Shown: piece after piece, positions 5,718 to 29,482 of the stretch
Position numbering within the stretch: position 1 is the first letter of the stretch
Layout: each line of letters opens with the position of its first letter
DNA from: Spirochaetaceae bacterium
GTDB taxonomy: Bacteria; Spirochaetota; Spirochaetia; B11-G9
Assembly (NCBI GenBank): GCA_015493635.1
Contig: WGCU01000038.1
Span: 1-64,000 of the forward strand
Reading direction: 5' to 3'
DNA: 64,000 bases
Position numbers and translations under genes: made by a program
Notes under the pieces: generated by a model
What the model was told of the DNA's origin: nothing
Seen by the model: only the letters and a program-made list of their open reading frames with translations
Databases searched by the model: none

Positions 5718-5789
5718 GGGCGATTAACTCAGTGGGAGAGTGCTACCTTCACACGGTAGAAGTCACTGGTTCAAATCCAGTATCGCCTA
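5718..5789 (+). tRNA. tRNA-Val(CAC)
   Basis: A 72-base cloverleaf. The acceptor stem is GGGCGAT/ATCGCCT with a G-T pair at the first position. The anticodon stem is CTACC/GGTAG around the loop TTCACAC, giving anticodon CAC (5750-5752), which reads GUG valine codons. The T arm is ACTGG-TTCAAAT-CCAGT and the discriminator base is A. CCA is not encoded and must be added afterwards. A short T run follows. It is a single tRNA, convergent with the phosphatase-like gene. Confidence 0.95.
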
Positions 5790-17533: not shown

Positions 17534-17567
17534 GCTCTGCGGGTTTCATTGTCTGCAGAGCGTTTTT
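17534..17567 (+). terminator. Rho-independent terminator
   Basis: The stem GCTCTGC (17534-17540) / GCAGAGC (17555-17561) with a 14-base loop, then GTTTTTA. It closes the rubrerythrin-like gene just before the convergent deoD stop. Confidence 0.85.
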
Positions 17568-18267
17568 ATAAAATGGTATTCAGTGCTACTTCCATCATAC
17601 CGGTAAAGGTTTGTTCTCTCTCTGCAGATGTGGTTGTAGCTCCGGTGATAATGTCGTCGCTTACGGTTAACAGAGCGAGCGCCTGAACTTTGAACTTCGC
17701 CGCAATGGTGTAGAGAGCGGCAGTCTCCATTTCTTCAGCAAGAATACCGTAATCCGCCCATAGTTTCCAGTCTTCCGGATCATCCTGATAAAAGGTATCC
17801 GACGTGAGTATTTTACCCACATGAAACGGTGTATGAATCTTTTTTGCCTGCTGAACAGCCTTTTCAAGAAGCTCATAATCAGCTGTTGCTGCATAATCTC
17901 TCCCGCTGAACCGTAGTTTGTTGAAGGATGCATCGGTGGATGCCGACATGGCGATAATTATATCTCTCAGTTGTATTTCCGGGCTTGTGGAGCCGCAGGA
18001 TCCAATACGGATAAGTTTTTTTGCCCCATACTGCTCAATAAGCTCTGTTACATAGATTGATATGGAGGGTATCCCCATACCTGTTCCCTGAACGGAAACT
18101 TTTTCCCCTTTATACGTTCCGGTAAAACCGTACATTCCTCTGACACGGGAATATTCAACCGGATTCTCAAGAAAATTTTCCGCAATAAACCTGGCCCGCA
18201 GGGGATCTCCGGGAAGCAGTACCGCCTCCGCAATATCTCCCCTCTTTGCACCTATGTGGATACTCAT
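17566..18267 (-). CDS. deoD: Purine-nucleoside phosphorylase DeoD type
   Basis: A 233-residue hexameric-type phosphorylase that splits adenosine, inosine or guanosine and their deoxy forms with phosphate to base and (deoxy)ribose-1-phosphate. Family landmarks are the N-terminal [30 protein letters not shown], the phosphate-site GSCGST near residue 90, EMETAALY, and a LLTVSDD catalytic region. It is the last gene of a minus-strand operon, overlapping the mutase-like gene by ATGA. With the two SAM-hydrolase-type genes upstream, adenosine is the likely physiological substrate here (inference). Confidence 0.95.
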
Positions 18268-20168
18268 TTTACCTCTCCTTTATCTGCTCTTTCTATGATG
18301 GAACGGTGCCAGTTTAAAAACCACTCTTCCCGCTCTTTATCCGTTCCTTTGCAATCTGCCAGAACTCGGAATACCGGTTCCGTTCCCGAACCGCGCATCC
18401 AGATGTAGTCAGTTTCCACACCGTTTCTGTTCATGAAAACGATTTTTAATCCGCCCCGTTCCTCTCCTGATCTGAAGGTACTTCCTGTTCCTTCACGGGC
18501 ATTGGTACCTTCGTAATTAATCTCCCTCCAACTGACAATTCCAAAGTGTTCCAGAAGGTATGCTTTCTTTTTGTCCCATTCTTTCAGAAACAGCTTTTCA
18601 TACCTCTGTTTAAGCAGTGCATGATCGGCCGTTGTAATGTTCATAATGGCCCTGTTTTCATAGGCACTGGTTGTTATAAAAGAGGGGAGGGTAGCAATAA
18701 TGTCGGATAGGGTATAGCTGCTTTTGTACGCATTCTCTTGTCTGCTTTTCCGGCACCAAATTTTAAAGAGGTCATCACCCGGTTCATTTCCTCTAACAAG
18801 AAGAAGCTTTAACAGTGCAAAGAGGGTATTGATGGGATCCCGGACCATGGCAGGATGGGTAATATTACCGCCGTTAGAGCCTTCTCCCAGAATGCGTACA
18901 GTGTATCCTTTTCTCCTGAGTTCCGATGCCAGAGATACAACGTTGGCTTCTCCTACCTCGGCACGGAAGACCTCTGCATCAAAGGCATCAGCTATCCGGT
19001 CTATCCTCATGGATGTCGGGCCGTTTACTGCTACTGCAAGCTTTTTTTCTTTTTTTACCGCTGCTTCTGTTGAAAGAAAAGCAAGTTCACCAAGAACAGC
19101 CAGGGCAAAAACCTCCTGGGCCTCCAGTATTTCTGCTTTTCCGCTGTGGTGGTTAATGTACACGATATTTCCCCGGTCACCGTCATTATCCGGTACGTAT
19201 CCCAGTACAAAAGCTGAATTCTTGGAGTGTTCTTCTTCAAGCAGTCCCCTGCAGGTGTCAAGGCTGAACCCTTCCGGTACAATACGGTGCACTATTTCCC
19301 GGGGCTTGTTGTTAAAGGAAAGATATGTGATCCCCGCGGATGAAAGAATATCACCGTCAATGGACAGTGTTCTTGCAGAACCGTTTAATTCAGCTATAAC
19401 TCCCATGGGTTTTTGTGCGGTACTGGCTGCCAGGGTTGTAAAAAAGGCCCTTTGAATCTCAGAATCCGGTGAATCAGCGATTGTTCTCCGGGATAAAGAA
19501 AGGTACGCCGAATAGGCCCGTGCTTTACAGGAAGCAGATGCAGCAAGTACCTTTTCGTAGATTTTTGTGTCTATGCCGGCTGATTTTCCGGCTATAATTT
19601 TAACAATTTCAGGGTTTTGCAGCAGCGATTTAAAACTTTCAATAAGCACTTTTGAATCATTGCCCCCGGAAACACCCCCCCCTATACCGAATTTAAGGCC
19701 GTTATGTCCTACAGGGTTGTGGCTGGCAGAAATATAAGCGAATCCATCTATATCCGGTGATAAGGCGGAGTAGGCCATAATCTCCGGTGCCGCTGTAATA
19801 AAAAGGCTGTCCAGTTCAAGCCCCTCGGCAAGGAATATTCTGCTCATTATATTACAGATAGCAGGTCCTGTATGTCTTGAATCCATACCGACAGCTATAC
19901 GGGGATTATTGATCTCTTTGTACTCTTTCAGGAACTTTGAAAAGGACAGGGCCGTTATGCCTGCAATAACCGTATCCGCTGCTGTTATAGTGTCAGTGGT
20001 ACTTTCTTCATTCCCGTCCGTGGCAAAGATCTTTCTCCATCCTGAAGCGGACAGAATCATCGATTCTGCTGATGCAAGGACGTCTCTGTAATCAGGTACG
20101 GCCTCTGCCAAGGGATCTGTTTCCGGGTCTGCAATAAAAAATCCGGTTGTTTTATCATACATCTTCAT
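18264..20168 (-). CDS. Alpha-D-phosphohexomutase-family phosphomutase
   Basis: A 634-residue phosphomutase with the full set of family sites: catalytic serine loop ASHNP (148-152), metal loop PDNDGDRGN (about 340), sugar loop GEGSNGG (about 430) and C-terminal phosphate loop [17 protein letters not shown]. The N-terminal part includes [10 protein letters not shown]. Members interconvert hexose-1- and hexose-6-phosphates, and some act on pentose phosphates. Coupled by ATGA to deoD, which releases ribose-1-phosphate, a phosphopentomutase role is attractive but unproven; phosphoglucomutase remains the default. It is longer than typical bacterial PGM/PMM proteins (450-580 residues). Confidence 0.88.
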
Positions 20169-20191: not shown

Positions 20192-21037
20192 TTACTGTTC
20201 GGCCTTTCGGAATTCAATTTCCCACTGCCGGCCGGTACCTATGTTGTATGCTTTCGCGAAGTTTCCCTGATTGATGGCAACAGCCATATTGTACACTGAA
20301 TTTACGTAGATAATCTGTTCACTAACCCGGACATCCGCAAAGGACTTTCCGTAAAAAATCCTGTTGTCATAGGCTAATACAGAGCCGTTTCGAATAATAA
20401 CTTCTATCCGTTCCCCCAGGGTAAATCCGACACCGAGAAACGTATCCCGCGGGATGTTAGTCCAGAGACTGCCGAACCGTATATCGAGGATATCGATCGT
20501 TCCCTGTACAGACGTTTCTCCCACGGTAATTTTTCCGGTTTCAAGTTCCACAACCGATGCTGTATCCACCAGGGGGCCGACATCAGCAAAGGAGATGGTT
20601 CCGGAAGCAAGTTTTGCCCCTGTTAATGCGTACACATCTCTGCCGTGAAAGGTATAGGAGTGCTCGGTGTTTTCCCTTCTATGAAGTGTTTCATCAATTT
20701 CCCGCACTTCTTCGATGCCGGTAAACTTCTTTATATGGGTAAGAGTGCCGTTGTCGGGAGTTACAATAAATTTTCCGTTGCGTGTTTTAGCAACAACGCT
20801 CTTTCTGTTGGAACCGACTCCCGGATCGACAACGGAAACAAAAACTGTTCCCTTCGGCCAGTATTCGATGGTTTGAAAAAGTCTGTAGGATGCGTCCCAG
20901 ATGTTGTACGGAGGAATATCGTGAGTTATATCCTGAATTTTCAGGGTATCGTCAATACTGTTGGCAACCCCGTACATAGCTGCTACCGCTCCGTCGACGA
21001 GGCCAAAATCACTCTGGAATACCAGTAATCGTTTCAT
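20192..21037 (-). CDS. DUF62-family SAM hydroxide adenosyltransferase-like protein, copy 2
   Basis: A 281-residue member of the fluorinase/DUF62 fold. Characterised DUF62 enzymes use water or hydroxide to break S-adenosylmethionine into adenosine and methionine with an Asp-Arg-His set. All three are visible: D71 and R78 in VVDPGVGSNR and H131 in FHGRD. The N-terminal LVFQSDFG and the C-terminal adenine-binding region (YDNRIFYGKSFADV) are also present. It is a tandem paralog of the gene immediately upstream, overlapping it by ATGA and with equal length. It lies 23 bases before the phosphomutase gene. Confidence 0.88.
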   Translation of the reverse strand: MKRLLVFQSDFGLVDGAVAAMYGVANSIDDTLKIQDITHDIPPYNIWDASYRLFQTIEYWPKGTVFVSVVDPGVGSNRKSVVAKTRNGKFIVTPDNGTLTHIKKFTGIEEVREIDETLHRRENTEHSYTFHGRDVYALTGAKLASGTISFADVGPLVDTASVVELETGKITVGETSVQGTIDILDIRFGSLWTNIPRDTFLGVGFTLGERIEVIIRNGSVLAYDNRIFYGKSFADVRVSEQIIYVNSVYNMAVAINQGNFAKAYNIGTGRQWEIEFRKAEQ

Positions 21038-21879
21038 TTAAAAATCTCCACTTTCCATTCCGGGCCGTGCCCGGTATTATATTTTTTGCTGAAATTACCC
21101 TGTGATACCGCAAAGCCGATGTTCATAAGTTCGTTGTTGTAGATAACAGGATTTCCCTTTTCTGCAAACCCGAAAGACCGGTGGAATAGAATCATTCCGG
21201 AAAAGACGGTTTCGTTATTTTTCCGAATAACAGCGTTAAGATGATCTCCGTAGTGCATTCCTTCGGCCTCCATAAGTTCCAACGGAATATTTGTCCATGC
21301 GTTACCGAAATTGGGATCTCTTATTTCAATAATTCCGGAAACTCTGCCATTCTTTGCTTCAGGTTTAAATATCGGATGTGTTACAATTGATTCTACCGGA
21401 TAGGAGTCTCCAACCTCCCTGAAGGTAATAATACCAGAGGCAAGTCTGGCCGCACAGTACGAGAAAAGATCTCTGCCGTGGAAGATGCTTACCTCATCTG
21501 TTCCTTTCCCTCTCAGCCTGTTTATGCTTTCATCTATTTCACGTATCTCTTCAATTCCCATCTGGTCTTTAAGATGAGTCAGCGATCCGTTATCCGGGGT
21601 TACAATGTAATACCCCCCCTTAATCAGGGCTACTGAAGCCTTCCGTTTTGTTCCCACACCGGGATCAACGACAGAAACAAATACGGTACCTTTGGGCCAG
21701 AACCGGACGTACTGCCATAACCGATAGGAGGCGCTCCATGTATCGTACTGGGGAATTTCATGGGTGGCGGTAATTATTTCAAGTTCCCGGTCAACACTTT
21801 TTACGACACCGTACATTGACGCAACGGCACCTTCCTTGTATGTAAAATCGGTTTGAAAGACAAGCATCATCTTCTGCAA
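21034..21879 (-). CDS. DUF62-family SAM hydroxide adenosyltransferase-like protein, copy 1
   Basis: A 281-residue paralog of the next gene. The Asp-Arg-His set is conserved: D72 and R79 in VVDPGVGTKR and H134 in FHGRD. The start is chosen as TTG because GGAG lies seven bases before it; an ATG three codons later would give the same N-terminal alignment as copy 2. It is the first gene of the operon DUF62-DUF62-phosphomutase-deoD. The family is expected to turn SAM into adenosine and methionine. Halogenase activity is unlikely, because the lineage and motifs are those of the hydrolase group. The two copies are clearly diverged (SDFGLVDGAVAAMYG against TDFTYKEGAVASMYG). Confidence 0.87.
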   Translation of the reverse strand: MQKMMLVFQTDFTYKEGAVASMYGVVKSVDRELEIITATHEIPQYDTWSASYRLWQYVRFWPKGTVFVSVVDPGVGTKRKASVALIKGGYYIVTPDNGSLTHLKDQMGIEEIREIDESINRLRGKGTDEVSIFHGRDLFSYCAARLASGIITFREVGDSYPVESIVTHPIFKPEAKNGRVSGIIEIRDPNFGNAWTNIPLELMEAEGMHYGDHLNAVIRKNNETVFSGMILFHRSFGFAEKGNPVIYNNELMNIGFAVSQGNFSKKYNTGHGPEWKVEIFK

Positions 21880-21922
21880 TGATTTACTCCTGTAAACGCT
21901 TTTCCCTGTAGGAACGTATTGA

Positions 21923-22030: not shown

Positions 22031-22049
22031 TCTCCGCAAGGAGTTTAAT

Positions 22050-22922
22050 ATGGTTAAAAGAGTTTTATTGGTCTTTCTAGCCTGTCTGATTGCACTTCCT
22101 GTATTTGCAAACGGTCAGAAGGAAGCACCGAAAGGGAACACTGCTGCTGCCGGCACCAGTACTACTTCCCTGGAGCGTACTGTAAATGATCCGCGGCTTT
22201 TCCATCCTGGAAAACTCACGGTAGCAACGGGAGATCCCGTTTATCCGCCATGGATGATGGACAATGACCCTGCCAGCGGAAAGGGATTTGAAAGTGCACT
22301 TGTCTACGCACTTGCTGCGAAGCTTGGGTTTAAAAAAGATGATGTTGTTTGGGTTCGCCAGACTTTTGACGAAGGTATTGCTCCGGGTCCAAAACCGTAT
22401 GATTTTAATATCCAGCAGTATTCGGTAACTGAAGCCAGACGGAAGTTTGTTGATTTCTCCATTGTTTATTACCAGCCGGAGAAAGCAGTTGTAGCACTGC
22501 CGTCAAGTAACTTCTCAACAGCCAAAACCTTTGCGGATCTCAGAAAAGCAAAATGGGGAGCTACCATAGGAACATCGGACCTTGATTATATTGAAAATGT
22601 CATCGGGTACAAAAATGCCGCAGTTTTCAATGATCAGGCAGCGACTTTTCAGGCATTGCTGGCTAAACAGATAGATGCCACCGTTATTTCACTTCCTACA
22701 GCTTTGTATGTAACGGCTGTACAGGTTCCTGAAGCCAAAATAGCAGCTATTCTTCCTTCCGATCCGAATGATCAGGGATTCGGCCTCGTATTTGAAAAGG
22801 GGAATCCCATTGTCCCATGGATTAATGAAGGTTTGAAAGCTGTTATTAAAGATGGTGTTGTTGCAAAATTGACAAAACAGTACCTTATTGGAGACAAGAA
22901 TATTCCGGAGATATCCAAGTGA
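22050..22922 (+). CDS. Amino-acid-type ABC transporter substrate-binding protein
   Basis: A 290-residue periplasmic protein of the bacterial extracellular solute-binding family 3. It has a signal peptide of about 20 residues ending VFA before NGQKE, the spirochaete-like FANGxKE junction without a lipobox cysteine. The core starts with KLTVATGDPVYPPWMMD and contains KGFESALVYALAAKLGF and DFNIQQYSVTEARRKFVDFS, typical of polar amino-acid binders. The start at 22050 is supported by GCAAGGAG. The ligand is unknown. It overlaps the permease by GTGA and is divergent from the SAM-hydrolase operon. Confidence 0.9.
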   Translation: MVKRVLLVFLACLIALPVFANGQKEAPKGNTAAAGTSTTSLERTVNDPRLFHPGKLTVATGDPVYPPWMMDNDPASGKGFESALVYALAAKLGFKKDDVVWVRQTFDEGIAPGPKPYDFNIQQYSVTEARRKFVDFSIVYYQPEKAVVALPSSNFSTAKTFADLRKAKWGATIGTSDLDYIENVIGYKNAAVFNDQAATFQALLAKQIDATVISLPTALYVTAVQVPEAKIAAILPSDPNDQGFGLVFEKGNPIVPWINEGLKAVIKDGVVAKLTKQYLIGDKNIPEISK

Positions 22923-23767
22923 GTTCAAAGCGTCCCGCGCCGTTAAAACGTGCGGGGCGTACGTTAAAGGTGAGGGATAAATACGGCCCCGCTGTAATAA
23001 GTGTTACCAGTGTATTGATAGTGACATTGATTATCCGGGCTGCCGTTGTTCATGCTCAGCAATGGCCCAGAATTAAAGCCCAATTTTTCAGTATGAAAGC
23101 AATCATTGAGGTTTTCCCCAATGTGCTCAAAGGGTTCGGGATCAATATGTCAATATGGGCGGTCTCCCTTGTTGTGATTGCACTGTGGGCGTTGCTGCTG
23201 GCTGTTTTCCGTTCCCTCCATGGACCGTGGTTTGCCCCCTTGCGGGTTTTCTCCATCGTCTATATTGATCTGTTCAGGGGGCTGCCCTCACTTTTACTTG
23301 TACTCCTCTTCGGGTTTGGTGTCCCTGCTCTCCAGATTCCCGGTCTGCCGAGGACCAGTCTGTTCTGGGGATCTGCGGCATTGATCATGAGCTATTCCGC
23401 GTATGCTGCAGAGGTATACCGGTCGGGAATTGATGCGGTACATACCGGGCAGCGTACTGCAGCAAAGGCTCTTGGCCTTTCCCAGTGGCAGACCCTCTAC
23501 TACTGTATTCTGCCCCAGGCGGTCCGCAATGTTATTCCGTCGCTTTTGAATCTTGCCGTTGCACTGCAGAAAGATGTTGCCCTTTTGAGTGTACTGGGAA
23601 TACGTGATGCGGTCCGTGAAGCGCAGATATATACCGCTCGTACCTTCAACTATTCATCGCTTATTGCCGCTGCTGCACTCTTCCTGGCGGCAACCATTCC
23701 TATGGCCCGGTTAACAGACTACATTGCCAAAAAAGACCGCGAACGGCGGCTGCAGGGGGCAGTATAG
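22919..23767 (+). CDS. Amino-acid-type ABC transporter permease
   Basis: A 282-residue membrane protein of the His/Glu/Gln/Arg permease class, with about five helices (the first at about 24-43). The conserved ATPase-contact loop reads EVYRSGIDAVHTGQRTAAKALGLSQ. The start is GTG, overlapping the binding-protein stop, with CCGGAG upstream. The N-terminus is unusually basic (KRPAPLKRAGR). As the only permease in the operon it probably forms a homodimer. Its partners are the genes on both sides. Confidence 0.9.
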   Translation: MSSKRPAPLKRAGRTLKVRDKYGPAVISVTSVLIVTLIIRAAVVHAQQWPRIKAQFFSMKAIIEVFPNVLKGFGINMSIWAVSLVVIALWALLLAVFRSLHGPWFAPLRVFSIVYIDLFRGLPSLLLVLLFGFGVPALQIPGLPRTSLFWGSAALIMSYSAYAAEVYRSGIDAVHTGQRTAAKALGLSQWQTLYYCILPQAVRNVIPSLLNLAVALQKDVALLSVLGIRDAVREAQIYTARTFNYSSLIAAAALFLAATIPMARLTDYIAKKDRERRLQGAV

Positions 23768-24511
23768 ATGCCGAAAATAGAAATTAGCCACCTTACCAAA
23801 TATTACGGCAGGAAACTTGTCCTTAAGGATATAAGCCTGAATGTAGAAGAGCATGAAGTTGTCTGTCTCATAGGTTCTTCCGGATCCGGTAAATCTACGC
23901 TTTTACGCTGTATCAATGACCTTGTTCCTTTTGAGTACGGGAGTATCAAACTTGACGGTGTATCAATTTATGATTCCGGGTTTGACGTACGGGATCTATA
24001 CAAGCGGATAGGAATTGTTTTTCAGGCATACAATCTGTTCCCCCATATGACCGTTCTTGATAATATAACCCTTGCTCCCCGGAAGGTGCACCATACAGCA
24101 AAAAGGAAAAGCGAAGCCTATGCCCGGGAGCTCCTGTCCCTCTTTGCACTGGGTGACTTTGCTGATTCCTATCCTGAACAGCTTTCCGGCGGTCAGCAGC
24201 AGAGGGTCGCTATTGTCCGGGCTATGGTTAACCGTCCTGAGGTGCTGCTCCTTGACGAAGTGACAGCCGCCCTTGATCCTGAACTCATTGGGGATGTGCT
24301 GGCGGTTATAAAGGATTTGCGGAAAAAGGGGATGACCATGCTCATCGTAACTCATGAAATGGGCTTTGCCCGGGATGTAGCAGACAGAGTTTGTTTTCTC
24401 GATGGTGGTAAAATCCTTGAGGAAGCACCTCCTGATCAACTGTTTCAAAATCCCCGAAATCCCCGCACACGACAATTTCTGCAGCGGATTATAGAAGCCG
24501 GACGGCTGTAA
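23768..24511 (+). CDS. Amino-acid-type ABC transporter ATP-binding protein
   Basis: A 247-residue ATPase with Walker A GSSGSGKST (about 36-44), Q-loop VFQAYNLFPH, signature LSGGQQQR and Walker B VLLLDEVTAAL. The D-loop and an H-loop (VTHEMG) are present. It closely follows the GlnQ/HisP pattern and is directly adjacent to the permease stop. One oddity is Val rather than Pro in the usual DEPTS/A context (DEVTAALD), which is common in this subfamily. Confidence 0.92.
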   Translation: MPKIEISHLTKYYGRKLVLKDISLNVEEHEVVCLIGSSGSGKSTLLRCINDLVPFEYGSIKLDGVSIYDSGFDVRDLYKRIGIVFQAYNLFPHMTVLDNITLAPRKVHHTAKRKSEAYARELLSLFALGDFADSYPEQLSGGQQQRVAIVRAMVNRPEVLLLDEVTAALDPELIGDVLAVIKDLRKKGMTMLIVTHEMGFARDVADRVCFLDGGKILEEAPPDQLFQNPRNPRTRQFLQRIIEAGRL

Positions 24512-24542: not shown

Positions 24543-25571
24543 ATGTATACGGCTGATGAACACCGGTATGATACTATGGTCTATAACAGATGCGGCCGGA
24601 GCGGTCTTAAACTGCCGGCTGTTTCTCTCGGTTTGTGGCATAACTTCGGCGGTGTAGATGTATTTGAAAATGCCCGGAAAATAATTCACAGGGCTTTTGA
24701 TCTTGGGGTTACTCACTTTGACCTTGCTAATAATTATGGTCCTCCCTATGGATCGGCGGAGGAGAACTTCGGAAAAATCCTGAAGCAGGATCTCTCTTCT
24801 TATAGGGACGAACTTCTTATCTCTACAAAAGCAGGCTATGATATGTGGCCCGGACCCTATGGAATCTGGGGTTCACGCAAGTACCTTCTTGCGAGCCTGG
24901 ATCAGAGTCTGAAACGGATGGGTCTGGAGTATGTTGATATTTTCTACAGTCACCGGTTTGATCCGGATACTCCTCTGGAAGAAACCATGGGGGCTCTTGA
25001 TACAGCAGTCAGGCAGGGGAAAGCTCTTTACGCGGGAATATCCTCATATTCAGCTGAAAAGACAAAGGCTGCTGCTGCCATTTTAAGATCGATGGGTACT
25101 CCGGTACTTATTCATCAACCGTCATATTCGATGCTGAACCGCTGGGTTGAGGCCAAACTTCTCGATACCCTGGCAGAAGAGGGAATCGGCTGTATAACCT
25201 TTTCTCCGCTGGCTCAGGGTATGCTCACTGACAGGTATCTGAAAGGTATTCCTGATGGTTCGAGAGCCGCAAAAGAGGGATCCTCGTTACATAAGAACAT
25301 GCTCAGCAAAAAGAATCTTGAGAATATAAGAAGTCTGAACGAAATAGCAAAGCGAAGGGGGCAAACCCTGGCACAGATGGCTCTTGCATGGAATCTGCAT
25401 CATCCTCAGGTAACATCCGTACTGGTTGGAGCAAGCAGCGTACAGCAGATTGAACAGAACATCGGAGCGCTTGATAATCTGAGATTTTCTCAGGAAGAAT
25501 TAATGGAAATTGACAAGTATGCCCTTGAGGGGGATATCAATCTGTGGGCTGCCTCAAGTTCTGCAGGTTAG
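24543..25571 (+). CDS. gpr: Aldo/keto reductase, YghZ/Gpr type
   Basis: A 342-residue NADPH-dependent reductase of the AKR14/Kv-beta-like group, very like E. coli YghZ (L-glyceraldehyde-3-phosphate reductase). It shares LSLGLWHNFG-type, THFDLANNYGPP, STKAGYDMWPGPYG and SRKYLLASLDQSLKRMGLEY blocks. The catalytic Asp-Tyr-Lys-His set maps to D (FDLANNY), Y, K (STKAG) and H (YSHR). It lies 31 bases after the ABC ATPase and may be cotranscribed. It likely detoxifies small aldehydes such as methylglyoxal. Its 3' end overlaps the convergent transglutaminase-like gene by 35 bases. Confidence 0.93.
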   Translation: MYTADEHRYDTMVYNRCGRSGLKLPAVSLGLWHNFGGVDVFENARKIIHRAFDLGVTHFDLANNYGPPYGSAEENFGKILKQDLSSYRDELLISTKAGYDMWPGPYGIWGSRKYLLASLDQSLKRMGLEYVDIFYSHRFDPDTPLEETMGALDTAVRQGKALYAGISSYSAEKTKAAAAILRSMGTPVLIHQPSYSMLNRWVEAKLLDTLAEEGIGCITFSPLAQGMLTDRYLKGIPDGSRAAKEGSSLHKNMLSKKNLENIRSLNEIAKRRGQTLAQMALAWNLHHPQVTSVLVGASSVQQIEQNIGALDNLRFSQEELMEIDKYALEGDINLWAASSSAG

Positions 25572-26973
25572 TACGGTCCTCCCTGAAAACAGTGTTTTCA
25601 GGATCTTTTATAAGCCCTTCTTTAAGAATCTTTTCTGCTGATAAAAAGTCTTTTTTACGGACAGCTTCCACGAAGGTGTTATGAATTCCCGCTGTCCAGT
25701 TGTGGTACATGACGGCAGTTATCTTCTTCATACCGGGCAGGCTTTTTATGTTGTCCGGCAGTCCGGTAAGGAATATCCAAGCAGGGAAATATCCTCTTGA
25801 ATCTGCTGTTTCCGCGGCCTTTTTCTGATACAGATAGACCATATAGTCTGCCCATTCTTTCTGTGTCAGCATACCGGATTCATACGCTTTTTGTACCTGC
25901 GGTATGCTCCCGCCTGAGGAGAGGGATCTCCGGAGGGCTATCTTTTCAAGTTTATCAAGATCTTCGGCAGGAAGATTATTCTTTTCCGCAGCAAGAAAGG
26001 TTTCAGCTCTGGTAAAATCCTTTTGATTCAAAAACATGATAAGGTTGTTGTATGCCAGCCCGTAGACAAGTTTCCGGTTCTCCTGCTGCAGATTATAGGT
26101 TTTGGAAACCTTTATAAGGAAGTGAAGAGCCCCGGAATAGTCCTTTTTATCGTTCAGTACTGCAGCCCAGTTTCTGAACGCATTGTTCATCTCTGTAAAA
26201 TGATTGGAATCTCCTGTTAACGTCCACCTGTCCACAGCAAGACCCGCTGTTTCCGCGTGTCGATTATGTTTTTGCAGAAGTGCCATTCTGTTTTGGAGAA
26301 TGAGGGCCGTAACCTCTTTGTCGTTCAGTACTTTTCGGTATGCATAATTACCCGGCGGAACATAGGTAAAACCGGTCTGTTTGAAATCGTTTACAAACTC
26401 TTTCTTTACACCGGGATTGAAGCCGAAAGGTGATGTTGTTTCAACATCTATCCATCCCTTTCCCGTATTGACTTTACAGAAAACATGGTCTTTTGTTTCC
26501 ACTCCCCGGGTGGTAAGATCAGCTTCCCGGGCCAGAATAAGATAGAGTATGCTTGATGAGACACAGTTGAATGTTCCCCTGTCAATAAGAACATTCATGA
26601 AGGTTTGTTCCAGGGAGTACTGTTTCAGCAGCTGTTTATGCATCCAAACAAGCAGTTTATCTCCCCGCTGTTCTTTACTTAGCTTTAAAAGATACGGGAG
26701 TTCTGTCTTATTGAATGTATGTACAAGGCTGCTGTATTTCATTTCATAAGTTTTTAAACCGGCACCGGAGAGTCCCGAAGCGGCAAGGGATGCTGTAATA
26801 AATCTGCCGGTTTCAAAAGGAGTTGTCCACCCCGATGCTTCTTTCCAGAAAGCGAGAGGAGCCGTCCGCACAGCAGGATCAGCAGTTTTACTGTATACAG
26901 ATACTGCAGCAAGGAGGAGGAAAATCCATACAGCCGGAATTCTGATTACAAGATGTTTTGATCCCTTACACAC
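25537..26973 (-). CDS. Secreted transglutaminase-like protein with helical repeats
   Basis: The chosen start is the GTG at 26973, giving 478 residues. A signal or anchor helix (about 10-27) is followed by a transglutaminase-like cysteine protease fold with Cys137 (GTFNCVSSS), His163 (KDHVFCKV) and Asp176 (GWIDVETTS) in the Cys-His-Asp order. The long C-terminal part is alpha-helical and TPR-like. The frame is open upstream to 27180, but that stretch covers the divergent promoters and the pdxY start and is probably untranslated. No Shine-Dalgarno sequence precedes the GTG, and the -10 box ends 7 bases before it. Substrate unknown; a peptidase or amidase acting in the periplasm is the family expectation. 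Confidence 0.7.
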   Translation of the reverse strand: MCKGSKHLVIRIPAVWIFLLLAAVSVYSKTADPAVRTAPLAFWKEASGWTTPFETGRFITASLAASGLSGAGLKTYEMKYSSLVHTFNKTELPYLLKLSKEQRGDKLLVWMHKQLLKQYSLEQTFMNVLIDRGTFNCVSSSILYLILAREADLTTRGVETKDHVFCKVNTGKGWIDVETTSPFGFNPGVKKEFVNDFKQTGFTYVPPGNYAYRKVLNDKEVTALILQNRMALLQKHNRHAETAGLAVDRWTLTGDSNHFTEMNNAFRNWAAVLNDKKDYSGALHFLIKVSKTYNLQQENRKLVYGLAYNNLIMFLNQKDFTRAETFLAAEKNNLPAEDLDKLEKIALRRSLSSGGSIPQVQKAYESGMLTQKEWADYMVYLYQKKAAETADSRGYFPAWIFLTGLPDNIKSLPGMKKITAVMYHNWTAGIHNTFVEAVRKKDFLSAEKILKEGLIKDPENTVFREDRTNLQNLRQPTD

Positions 26974-26980
26974 TATCTTC

Positions 26981-27009
26981 AGTATAGTTGAAGTATTACT
27001 GAAAGACAA
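26981..27009 (-). promoter_or_regulatory. Promoter of the transglutaminase-like gene (leaderless geometry)
   Basis: On the minus strand: TTGTCT (27004-27009), a 17-base spacer and TATACT (26981-26986). The expected start of transcription falls on or one base before the GTG at 26973. It overlaps the divergent pdxY promoter. Confidence 0.6.
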
Positions 27010-27017
27010 TGTATAAT
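26988..27017 (+). promoter_or_regulatory. Promoter of the pdxY operon
   Basis: TTGAAG (26988-26993), an 18-base spacer and TATAAT (27012-27017). It is interleaved with the minus-strand promoter at 26981-27009, so the two cannot both be occupied by polymerase at once. Confidence 0.55.
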
Positions 27018-27043
27018 AGAATAATTTCAACAGGGGGGCATCA

Positions 27044-27919
27044 ATGACAAATCCCGTTCCGCGAGTAGCTGCCATCCACGATCTTTCAGGATTCGGAAGG
27101 GCATCGCTTACCATTGTTTCTCCGGTTCTTTCTTCCATGGGAATACAGGTTTGTCCGCTTCCTACATCCCTGTTATCCACTCATACATCCGGATTTGCCG
27201 GCTATACGTTCCTGGATTTGACTGAAGAAATGCGTAAGGTTATACGGCATTGGAAGGAGCTGAATATTGAGTTTGATGCAGTCTATTCCGGATTTCTCGG
27301 GTCAAGTGATCAAGTTGGCATTGTCTCAGACTTTATCGATTCTTTCCGGAATAAGGAACAGCTTGTTGTTGTTGATCCGGTAATGGGAGATGACGGGACG
27401 ACCTACGGTCCCTACGGTCCGGATATGGTATCCGCAATGAAAGAACTAGTTCAGAAAGCGGATATTATTACCCCAAATTATACTGAAAGCTGCTTTCTTC
27501 TTGATGAACCATACCGGGAGGAAATAACGGAACGTGATGTAAAAATGCACCTGCAGAGGCTGTCTGAAAGGGGACCCGGGAAAGTTGTTATAACAAGTGT
27601 TCCCCTAAAAGGCCGTAAAGGGCATTCCTACGTGTATGCCTATGACAAAGCATTCAATACTTTCTGGAGGGTGAGCTGCAGTTACATCCCTGCAAGTTAT
27701 CCCGGCACCGGAGATATGTTTACCAGTGTTCTTGTCGGTTCCCTGCTGCAGGGAGACAGCCTCCCCATTGCTCTTGACAGAGCTGTTCAGTTTGTCTCTC
27801 TGGCAATCCGGTCTACCTTCGGATACGGTACTCCCCGGAGGGAAGGTGTCCTCTTTGAGAAAGTACTCTACAGCCTTATGACTCCGGTTACGGTAAGTAA
27901 CTACGAAGTGGTGGATTAA
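27044..27919 (+). CDS. pdxY: Pyridoxal/pyridoxamine kinase
   Basis: A 291-residue ribokinase-fold kinase that phosphorylates pyridoxal, pyridoxine or pyridoxamine to make the PLP coenzyme form. It shows AAIHDLSGFGRASL at the N-terminus, VVVDPVMGDDGTTYG, DIITPNYTE and the catalytic YPGTGDMFTSVL near residue 220. An AGGGGGG ribosome site precedes the ATG. It heads an operon with a HAD phosphatase, an MTA/SAH nucleosidase and a CPBP-family membrane protein. Hydroxymethylpyrimidine kinase is a less likely alternative. Confidence 0.9.
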   Translation: MTNPVPRVAAIHDLSGFGRASLTIVSPVLSSMGIQVCPLPTSLLSTHTSGFAGYTFLDLTEEMRKVIRHWKELNIEFDAVYSGFLGSSDQVGIVSDFIDSFRNKEQLVVVDPVMGDDGTTYGPYGPDMVSAMKELVQKADIITPNYTESCFLLDEPYREEITERDVKMHLQRLSERGPGKVVITSVPLKGRKGHSYVYAYDKAFNTFWRVSCSYIPASYPGTGDMFTSVLVGSLLQGDSLPIALDRAVQFVSLAIRSTFGYGTPRREGVLFEKVLYSLMTPVTVSNYEVVD

Positions 27920-27923
27920 CGGT

Positions 27924-28766
27924 TTGGCTGACAGTACTATAAAGGCAATTGCAGCTACTGATTTTGATGGAACACTGTACCGGACTGATTGGTCCGTCTC
28001 CCAAAGAAACATTGAAACGCTTAAGATGCTCGAGCGCAGACATATCCTCAGGGTTATTGTTACCGGCAGATCGTTCTATTCGTTAACCAGTGCTATTGAT
28101 GAAAAATTTCCTGTTGACTACTATATCCTTTCTTCCGGATCAGGAGTGTATTCAAAAAAACAGAGAGCGCTTATATACAAAACGTCCATGCCCCGGGTGG
28201 AAGCACGGAAAATAGGAGAACTGCTTCTATCCCTGAATTGTGATTTCATGGTGCATGAAGTTCTTCCTGACAATCATCTTTTTTCCTACCGGCGGAGCGG
28301 AAAACCGAACAGGGACTTTGAAGCCAGAATCAGGTACTATGAAGAACACGGCCGGGAGATCAATGATCTTCTTTCTTTGAACGAAGATGTTTCCCAGTTC
28401 CTTGTTATTGAAAAACAGGGAAGTACTCTCTTTGAAACATTAAGGGAGAGGCTTAAGGACTGTACCGTTATACGTACAACATCTCCTCTTGATCATGAGT
28501 CATCATGGATTGAGATCTTTCCGAAGGGTACCAACAAAGGCAGCACGCTGCAATGGCTTACAGGCAGATACGGACTGACCCGTGACAATGTATTTTCCAT
28601 AGGGAACGATTTTAACGATCTGCACATGCTCTACTGGGCCCGTTCCTCTTTTGTTGTAGCCAATGCCTCCGCTCCTCTTCTAGATGAGTTCCGGGTTGTT
28701 TCAAGTAACGACAATGACGGGTTCAGTGAAGCGATAGCAATATGGATGAAGGAAACCGGATTATGA
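27924..28766 (+). CDS. Cof-type HAD-superfamily phosphatase
   Basis: A 280-residue HAD IIB (Cof) hydrolase. Motif I is DFDGTLYRTD (about 12-21), motif II is VTGRS, motif III is a Lys in PKGTNKG, and motif IV is GNDFNDLHML. The start is TTG four bases after the pdxY stop, with a GTGG ribosome site in the pdxY end. Members dephosphorylate sugar phosphates, FMN or PLP. Its place next to a pyridoxal kinase makes a B6 phosphate a reasonable but untested substrate. Confidence 0.87.
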   Translation: MADSTIKAIAATDFDGTLYRTDWSVSQRNIETLKMLERRHILRVIVTGRSFYSLTSAIDEKFPVDYYILSSGSGVYSKKQRALIYKTSMPRVEARKIGELLLSLNCDFMVHEVLPDNHLFSYRRSGKPNRDFEARIRYYEEHGREINDLLSLNEDVSQFLVIEKQGSTLFETLRERLKDCTVIRTTSPLDHESSWIEIFPKGTNKGSTLQWLTGRYGLTRDNVFSIGNDFNDLHMLYWARSSFVVANASAPLLDEFRVVSSNDNDGFSEAIAIWMKETGL

Positions 28767-29482
28767 TTGCTGTTATCAGTGCTCTTGAAGGTGAAACAAG
28801 CAGCATCCGCATAAAGATGAAGGACATTGTTTCTGAGAAATGGAAGGAAAGAATAATTACACGGGGCTCCTTCTCGGGAGAGGATATTATCCTTGCCTGC
28901 AGCGGAGCAGGAAAGGTGAATGCTGCACTGTGTGTGCAGTTTATTATAGACCGGTACGAGATTGAAACCATCTTTTTTGTCGGAATTGCGGGGGCATTAA
29001 ACCCTTCTCTGAGCATCGGGGATATTGTTGCGGCAAAGGAGTGTATCCAGTGGGATGTTGATATAAGCGCCTTCGGATTTAAGCGGGGTACCATTCCGCA
29101 GCCGGACAGCAAGGGAGAAGTACGGATATTTGAAAGTGATGAATCTCTGTTGAAGAAGGTTCTGGCCTGGAAATTACCCGGAGGAAAGGTCGTTCCCGGC
29201 CGGATTCTTACGGGAGACAGTTTTATAACCGGGGAAATTATCCGTGAAAGGCCCTGGCTTGATGCTGCTTTTAAAGAGCTCCACGGGGACGCGGTAGAGA
29301 TGGAAGGGGCGGCAGCTGCCCAGGTGTGTTATGAAAACGGGATATCTTTTCTCCTTGTGCGGGTTATATCCGATACGCTTTCCGGCGGAAAAGTAAAACA
29401 TTTCGGGCGTTTTCTATCCTCCAGTTCCGAAAAACTATCCAGCCTCATTGCCTTTATTCTGAAAGGACAGAACGATGTATAA
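28763..29482 (+). CDS. mtnN: 5'-Methylthioadenosine/S-adenosylhomocysteine nucleosidase
   Basis: The start is taken as the ATG at 28763, which overlaps the HAD stop (ATGA) and gives 239 residues beginning MIAVISALEGE, the usual MTAN N-terminus. An in-frame ATG at 28742 would add seven unconserved residues. Family sites are ALEGE (catalytic Glu region), SGAGKVNAA, GIAGALN, VEMEGAAAAQVC and RVISD (catalytic Asp). The enzyme releases adenine from MTA and SAH. It is a second adenine-releasing step in this window besides DeoD. Confidence 0.92.
   Translation: MIAVISALEGETSSIRIKMKDIVSEKWKERIITRGSFSGEDIILACSGAGKVNAALCVQFIIDRYEIETIFFVGIAGALNPSLSIGDIVAAKECIQWDVDISAFGFKRGTIPQPDSKGEVRIFESDESLLKKVLAWKLPGGKVVPGRILTGDSFITGEIIRERPWLDAAFKELHGDAVEMEGAAAAQVCYENGISFLLVRVISDTLSGGKVKHFGRFLSSSSEKLSSLIAFILKGQNDV

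Follow-up and report, generated by a model that had tools for sequence, protein, structure and literature searches.

An ancient, constrained and transporter-linked variant of the DUF62 enzyme family, found as a tandem gene pair in a Spirochaetaceae genome

The closest described enzymes are the DUF62 (R)-SAM hydrolases and the related fluorinase and chlorinases. The hydrolases carry a catalytic triad, Asp68-Arg75-His127 (PMC4859513), which activates water (PMC10491745; PMC4859513) and is described as confined to DUF62 proteins and absent from the halogenases (PMC10491745). Ligand contacts have been assigned in the fluorinase, where Asp16 meets the ribose hydroxyls, the amino groups of methionine and adenine are bound by Asp21 and Asn215, respectively, and Ser269 and Arg270 bind the methionine carboxylate, to which Thr155 is connected by a water network (PMC1282579); the adenine contact of Asn215 is described as conserved (PMC4859513). 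Published DUF62 structures have the active site at protomer boundaries (PMC12120602), as do SalL and FlA (PMC2515338), and the fluorinase work raised the speculation that in relatives a single chain might hold SAM (PMC1282579). At least some DUF62 enzymes have been suggested to do something besides (R,S)-SAM removal (PMC12120602). Here we compare with these enzymes two adjacent DUF62 genes that are an ancient, constrained and transporter-linked variant of the family.

Gene pair, fold and catalytic triad

The window analyzed here, a stretch of 64,000 nucleotides, contains the two genes on its minus strand, with copy B first and copy A second:

21034..21879, minus strand: DUF62 copy B, first gene of the pair, TTG start, 281 aa, identified as an open reading frame with Pfam SAM_HAT_N and SAM_HAT_C
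20192..21037, minus strand: DUF62 copy A, second gene of the pair, ATG start, 281 aa, identified as an open reading frame with Pfam SAM_HAT_N and SAM_HAT_C
21034..21037, minus strand: ATGA overlap of the B stop and the A start, read directly from the sequence
21887..21891, minus strand: AGGAG, read directly from the sequence, probable ribosome-binding site of B
21046..21049, minus strand: GGAG within the 3' end of B, read directly from the sequence, probable ribosome-binding site of A

Both open reading frames, which the initial annotation had placed here as DUF62 paralogs, matched the two family domains far over the cut-offs (SAM_HAT_N and SAM_HAT_C at 169 and 69 bits for A, 151 and 60 bits for B), and they were the only PF01887 genes found in a search of their own genome. 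That annotation had further described the copies as differing at many positions, as keeping the Asp-Arg-His set and as joined by an ATGA overlap, and our analysis bears it out on each count: the two proteins are 46% identical (127 of 279 aligned positions), the triad is D71/R78/H131 in A and D72/R79/H134 in B, and the overlap is present at 21037-21034. The identical length that it also pointed out holds, at 281 aa each, if B starts at TTG 21879, a start supported by the AGGAG at 21891-21887 and by the same start position in relatives such as that of genome G011; it means little, since A, B and C relatives (C being a third group, described below) span 275-298 aa with script-chosen starts.

AlphaFold2 single-chain models had a mean pLDDT of 92.9 for A and likewise 92.9 for B. 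Each model had 40 Foldseek matches with E <= 0.001, all of them to chains of DUF62 proteins, fluorinases or chlorinases; 2zbu was the best match in both cases (target-normalised TM 0.94), and VIA-align superposed the B model on 2zbu_A with a Z of 32.6 and an rmsd of 1.7 over 262 residues. With both domains, the catalytic triad and the fold of solved members, A and B belong to the DUF62 / SAM hydroxide adenosyltransferase family. Judged by these sequence features, both copies are probably hydrolytic, and halogenation by either is unlikely because the hydrolase triad is present in both and missing from halogenases.

Neither protein approached the more specific models. Against the (R)-SAM hydrolase equivalogs NF058624 and NF053629, with cut-offs of 350 and 470 bits, A scored 132 and 99 bits and B 98 and 92 bits; against the fluorinase model TIGR04507, with a cut-off of 400 bits, A scored 92.5 and B 61.9 bits. 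Among aligned relatives the catalytic His was present in 64 of 70 A-group rows (missing in 6), in 30 of 31 B rows (missing in 1) and in 16 of 18 classical rows, this last count not being independent, since the motif filter used to obtain these rows includes the catalytic His and adjoining residues. The 18 classical rows came from 23 stretches, five of which gave no reading frame under that filter.

Age, constraint and substrate-contact positions

A search with B found matches in 15 of 59 genomes (own included), three of them with distant matches only. The A search, at E <= 1e-15, matched 97 of 392 genomes of the phylum (own included), with distant classical DUF62 genes among the matches, and scans centered on two Firmicutes genomes found 14 matching genomes out of 341 and 16 out of 296 (centers included). 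Part of the A matches was fetched; a genus with 24 genomes (g102) was represented by two of them, and a sister genus by one. The B lineage spans same-class relatives, Treponema assemblies and Firmicutes, the named records carrying B being Treponema, Clostridia, Oscillospiraceae, Family XIII and Erysipelotrichaceae.

A tree built from 111 rows placed the B sequences in one group (28 rows, SH-aLRT 94), the A sequences in another (69 rows, 97) and those of C in a third (9 rows, 99), with the branching order of the three not settled by this tree; in a reduced tree from which the diagnostic columns had been removed, B plus C received a support of 99 and B alone 63. The pair is not a local duplication, B is an old lineage, and the A/B split predates the sampled bacterial classes or predates the spread of the genes among them. 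Because the A partners of B are not monophyletic, the pairing has arisen, broken up or moved on more than one occasion. Nei-Gojobori dN/dS ranged from 0.030 to 0.119 for A (computable for 8 of 12 pairs) and from 0.040 to 0.103 for B (7 of 12), values that are rough because most dS were high and frames were taken from stop to stop, including a few pre-start codons; saturation left four of the 12 pairs without dS for either gene and one further pair without dS for B. By this measure both genes are under purifying selection. A phylogeny had been proposed with the initial annotation as a check on whether the duplication is old and both lineages are under constraint, and both hold.

This history bears on the simplest account of the pair, that A and B are two copies of one SAM hydrolase kept for dosage. 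The triad and fold are indeed kept in both; the lineages nevertheless split before the sampled classes (or before their spread) and carry different fixed residues at substrate contacts, which makes plain redundancy highly improbable.

Contact roles were transferred from the fluorinase by alignment, over 132 aligned rows. Thr155, Asn215 and Ser269 occurred in all 22 classical and solved sequences (18 classical, 4 solved). Every one of the 31 B rows carried Glu at 21 and either Ile or Val at 155; at 215 and 269, which one truncated B row does not reach, the other 30 all carried Asn and Glu, respectively. Leaving aside one odd copy from genome G031, all 69 A rows had Thr at 155 and Ser at 269, 68 of them had Asp at 21, and position 215 was Ser in 61 of 69, Asn in 5 and His in 3. 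An acidic residue at 21 is not universal, being Asp in two of the four solved enzymes, Ser in one and Gly in one. In the window, the adenine contact (Asn215) corresponds to Asn193 in B and Ser190 in A, and the carboxylate contacts (Ser269, Thr155) to Ser247 and Thr129 in A and to Glu250 and Ile132 in B.

The two glutamates of B are strictly associated: Glu21, in the N-domain, and Glu269, in the C-domain of the same chain, occurred together in 31 rows, neither occurred in 100, and never did one occur alone. Since B is largely one lineage, this association may count as one event, or as two if the G031 copy is independent. That copy, the second of a different DUF62 tandem (L137:8274-9134), has Glu at the D21 and S269 positions and Asn215, with Thr155 kept, and a near-identical copy is found in G051. 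If of independent origin, its Glu pair would be a possible case of convergence; a second origin was not established, as grouping the copy with B costs 17 log-likelihood units yet the AU test gives p 0.052. Three A-type copies that directly follow SBP-type transporter genes (L119:956-1789, L153:2892-3734 and L154:1337-2179) have His at the adenine-contact position.

Pairing of A and B and linkage to transporters

The neighborhood loci were picked from search matches rather than at random. A lay directly after B in 23 of the 31 B genomes, always in the order B then A; in G144 and G329 the two share one cassette with transporter genes between them, and both were in the same locus in 25 of 31 B genomes. 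Five of the 31 (G426-G429 and G431, falling at two places in the B tree) had B with no detected A and keep the diagnostic residues; all five are metagenome assemblies and could be incomplete. In G505 the B locus is cut by a contig end. A without B was seen at 33 loci in 31 genomes, some of these incomplete. The pairing is thus not obligate, each gene occurring without the other.

From the coupled genes, the initial annotation had suggested either a mixed trimer or two substrate specificities. An A-B mixed trimer would form its active sites from an N-domain of one copy and a C-domain of the other copy, and neither homotrimer would have such a site. Family sites do lie between subunits, in the fluorinase (PMC1282579) as in DUF62 (PMC12120602), and the frequent B-A adjacency with B always first would suit such an assembly, as would the ATGA overlap of the window pair; that overlap is not general, however, occurring in 5 of 23 tandem B-A pairs (script-chosen starts). 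A heteromer also predicts the co-occurrence in 25 of 31 B genomes and the correlation of A and B distances (r 0.83 over 25 genomes, 0 of 5000 permutations as high). Each copy is moreover canonical where the other is not, most A proteins being without the Asn215 side chain and B without Ser269; yet Ser at position 215 is common in A proteins without B, and the diagnostic residues are kept in the five genomes with B and no A and the 31 with A and no B. A mixed site also gives no reason for the tie between Glu21 and Glu269 within one chain, found in 31 of 31 rows with either residue. A 2:1 mixed trimer would retain like-like interfaces. Taken together, these observations make the mixed trimer unlikely, and that part of the suggestion is not supported. 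The related idea of complementary degeneration, with each copy needing the contacts of the other, was rejected as the leading explanation, as B-less A proteins mostly have the same Ser and A-less B proteins the same Glu residues.

Because the two glutamates, in different domains of one chain, are always together, B sites are more readily understood as built from B subunits; with the occurrence of each gene without the other, residues kept, sites of like subunits are favored. The other half of the suggestion, two specificities, is favored by the old split, the constraint and the lineage-fixed contact changes. Read from the sequences, A and B would be two self-sufficient enzymes with different specificities, and on balance we think it probable that they are old, separately maintained SAM-hydrolase-type enzymes acting downstream of a dedicated importer.

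The genes around the window pair include a candidate for such an importer:

17566..18267, minus strand: DeoD-type purine-nucleoside phosphorylase (NCBIfam NF004489 at 362.8 bits and TIGR00107 at 318 bits, both over cut-off)
18264..20168, minus strand: divergent phosphosugar-mutase-like protein of 634 aa with PGM_PMM_I and III, next downstream of A
22044..22922, plus strand: divergent solute-binding protein of the SBP_bac_3 family (PF00497)
22919..23767, plus strand: ABC transporter permease (PF00528)
23768..24511, plus strand: ABC transporter ATPase, amino-acid type (PF00005)
27044-27919: putative pyridoxal kinase, labeled by sequence reading
27924-28766: putative HAD phosphatase, labeled by sequence reading

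At 28 of the 31 B loci, ECF genes lay <= 6 kb from B, typically in the order S component, fused ATPases, T component, B, A; these components were named by Pfam for L028 and by sequence clustering at the other loci. The B loci without ECF genes are those of the window, G003 and L029, the last on a contig that starts just before B. In the window and G003 a divergently oriented SBP-type ABC transporter takes the place of the ECF genes. Members of this transporter family also adjoin the A genes of G001, G002 and G004, and in five more loci (L151, L163, L166, L169 and L171) A has the permease cluster of that family beside it. Proteins 65-77% identical to the window solute-binding protein stand beside DUF62 genes in G001, G003 and G004, and the best NCBIfam models for the window ATPase were ectoine and amino-acid ATPases, below their cut-offs.

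C follows the T component in four cassettes (L141, L142, L156 and L157), the position held by B elsewhere, with two C genes each in L156 and L157, and it occurs without ECF genes in L143 and L144. Among the 33 B-less A loci, 13 (L137, L138, L139, L141, L142, L148, L150, L157, L164, L165, L167, L172 and L174) had an ECF S component plus ATPases or a T component in the same direction. The general picture, as far as gene order and domain matches define it, is of an importer accompanied by between one and three DUF62 genes.

The S component of L028 belongs to PF07155 and exceeds the cut-off of PRK13661, both of which carry riboflavin-type names, and the PF07155 member with a verified substrate is PdxU2/HmpT, a B6 transporter (PMC9997740). 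A search of the window genome, run without a positive control, detected no PF07155-type S component. The ECF S component did not help to identify the substrate, as five high-scoring PF07155 loci (L177-L181, in five genomes) carry an S-AA'-T cassette without adjoining DUF62, with an S component 62-67% identical to that of L174, and L184 carries a more distant S-AA'-T cassette without DUF62. With a close cassette of this kind lacking DUF62 in 5 of the 10 loci fetched, the transporter does not need the hydrolases.

Several further genes accompany these cassettes. A putative M20 dipeptidase of ~450-490 residues, labeled by sequence reading, lies between the ECF T component and B in L122, L127, L128, L129 and L152. 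Downstream of the ABC transporter, window positions 24543-29482 hold an aldo-keto reductase, the pyridoxal-kinase-like and HAD phosphatase-like proteins and an MTA/SAH nucleosidase, of which the reductase, putative kinase and putative phosphatase resemble vitamin B6 salvage genes described in PMC9997740. A relative of the window kinase-like protein (46% identical) lies upstream of an ECF-B-A cassette at L129:298-1146, the only case among the matches listed. Near the pair in the window and at L028, L030 and L033, no riboswitch or other known RNA reached the gathering score, bar one tRNA (window 5718-5789).

Candidate substrates and comparison with known enzymes

In both proteins the Asp-Arg-His triad would activate water to expel the leaving group attached to C5' of an adenosyl compound. 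The contacts to the methionine tail are intact in A, whose substrate probably carries a tail resembling that of methionine; in B two carboxylate contacts are gone and glutamates occupy the tail site, so that the B substrate probably bears a different or differently placed tail. In the window genome, the adenosine released could pass through the purine-nucleoside phosphorylase and the phosphosugar mutase to adenine and pentose phosphate. The phosphorylase gene overlaps the mutase gene by 4 bases, and a protein 63% identical to the mutase-like protein directly follows A in G003, whose contig then ends; linkage to the phosphorylase was found in the window genome only. The mutase-like protein is long (634 aa), with Pfam matches to domains I and III only, and it has weak matches to solved phosphosugar mutases.

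metK was found in the window genome as well as in 20 of the 22 others tested, which means that SAM is synthesized in most of these cells and does not have to be imported. In G871 (L134) and G919 (L133) the ECF-B-A cassette is present and metK was not found, which may reflect incomplete assemblies. Endogenous SAM is relevant to the proposal that A and B split the sulfonium epimers, each hydrolyzing one of (S,S)- and (R,S)-SAM. The superfamily does differ in this preference, fluorinase FlA1 preferring (S,S) and StDUF62 preferring (R,S) (PMC12120602), and with metK widespread, most of these cells generate SAM, and with it the epimer, internally. The B-specific changes, however, map to methionine amino and carboxylate contacts and not obviously to the sulfonium, and the importer linkage is left unexplained. 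We regard an epimer split as distinctly unlikely for A and B, although SAM epimers remain, with an imported adenosyl compound, among the candidate substrates.

The lost carboxylate contacts of B also prompted us to consider internally made decarboxylated SAM. SAM decarboxylase (PF02675) was found in 2 of the 20 B genomes tested (of 31, the window genome not among them) against 8 of 14 control genomes in the same search. With the enzyme undetectable in 18 of 20, we rejected endogenous decarboxylated SAM, which is unlikely as a general B substrate; decarboxylated SAM remains a candidate if imported or made by another enzyme.

Two old enzymes of different specificity, our preferred reading, could be taken further, to a so far unrecognized import-and-salvage system of which the pair is the enzymatic half: an ECF or ABC importer would bring in adenosyl compounds other than ordinary SAM, A taking those with methionine-like tails and B, through its paired glutamates, those with cationic or carboxylate-free tails. 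In this detail the proposal is tentative, and we would sooner doubt it than accept it. If true, B would be a member of DUF62 that has given up SAM as its substrate. The association with two unrelated kinds of importer and the rebuilt tail-binding site of the second lineage point to adenosyl-compound uptake and salvage, and the subfamily offers specific residues for testing. No paper linking DUF62 to ECF transporters was among the literature matches listed, a coverage that mostly excludes subscription papers.

The pair can now be set beside the systems it most resembles. With the DUF62 (R)-SAM hydrolases (PH0463, MJ1651, T. maritima 2zbu and StDUF62) it shares the two-domain SAM_HAT_N/SAM_HAT_C architecture, the fold and the Asp-Arg-His triad, although A and B are only 21-33% identical to solved DUF62 relatives. 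It differs from these hydrolases in that A mostly has Ser for Asn215, while Asp21 and Ser269 are both replaced by Glu in B and Thr155 by Ile/Val, in being paired and transporter-linked, and in scoring far under the cut-offs of the NCBIfam models. With the fluorinase FlA and the chlorinases SalL, ClA1 and ClA2 it has in common the fold (VIA-align Z 28.4-30.4 for the B model) and the Asp16 ribose contact, whereas the window copies keep the hydrolase triad and score far under the cut-off of the fluorinase model. Among ECF transporters, the closest are those with a PF07155 S component (PdxU/HmpT type), the family to which the L028 S component belongs, the other S components having been assigned by clustering.
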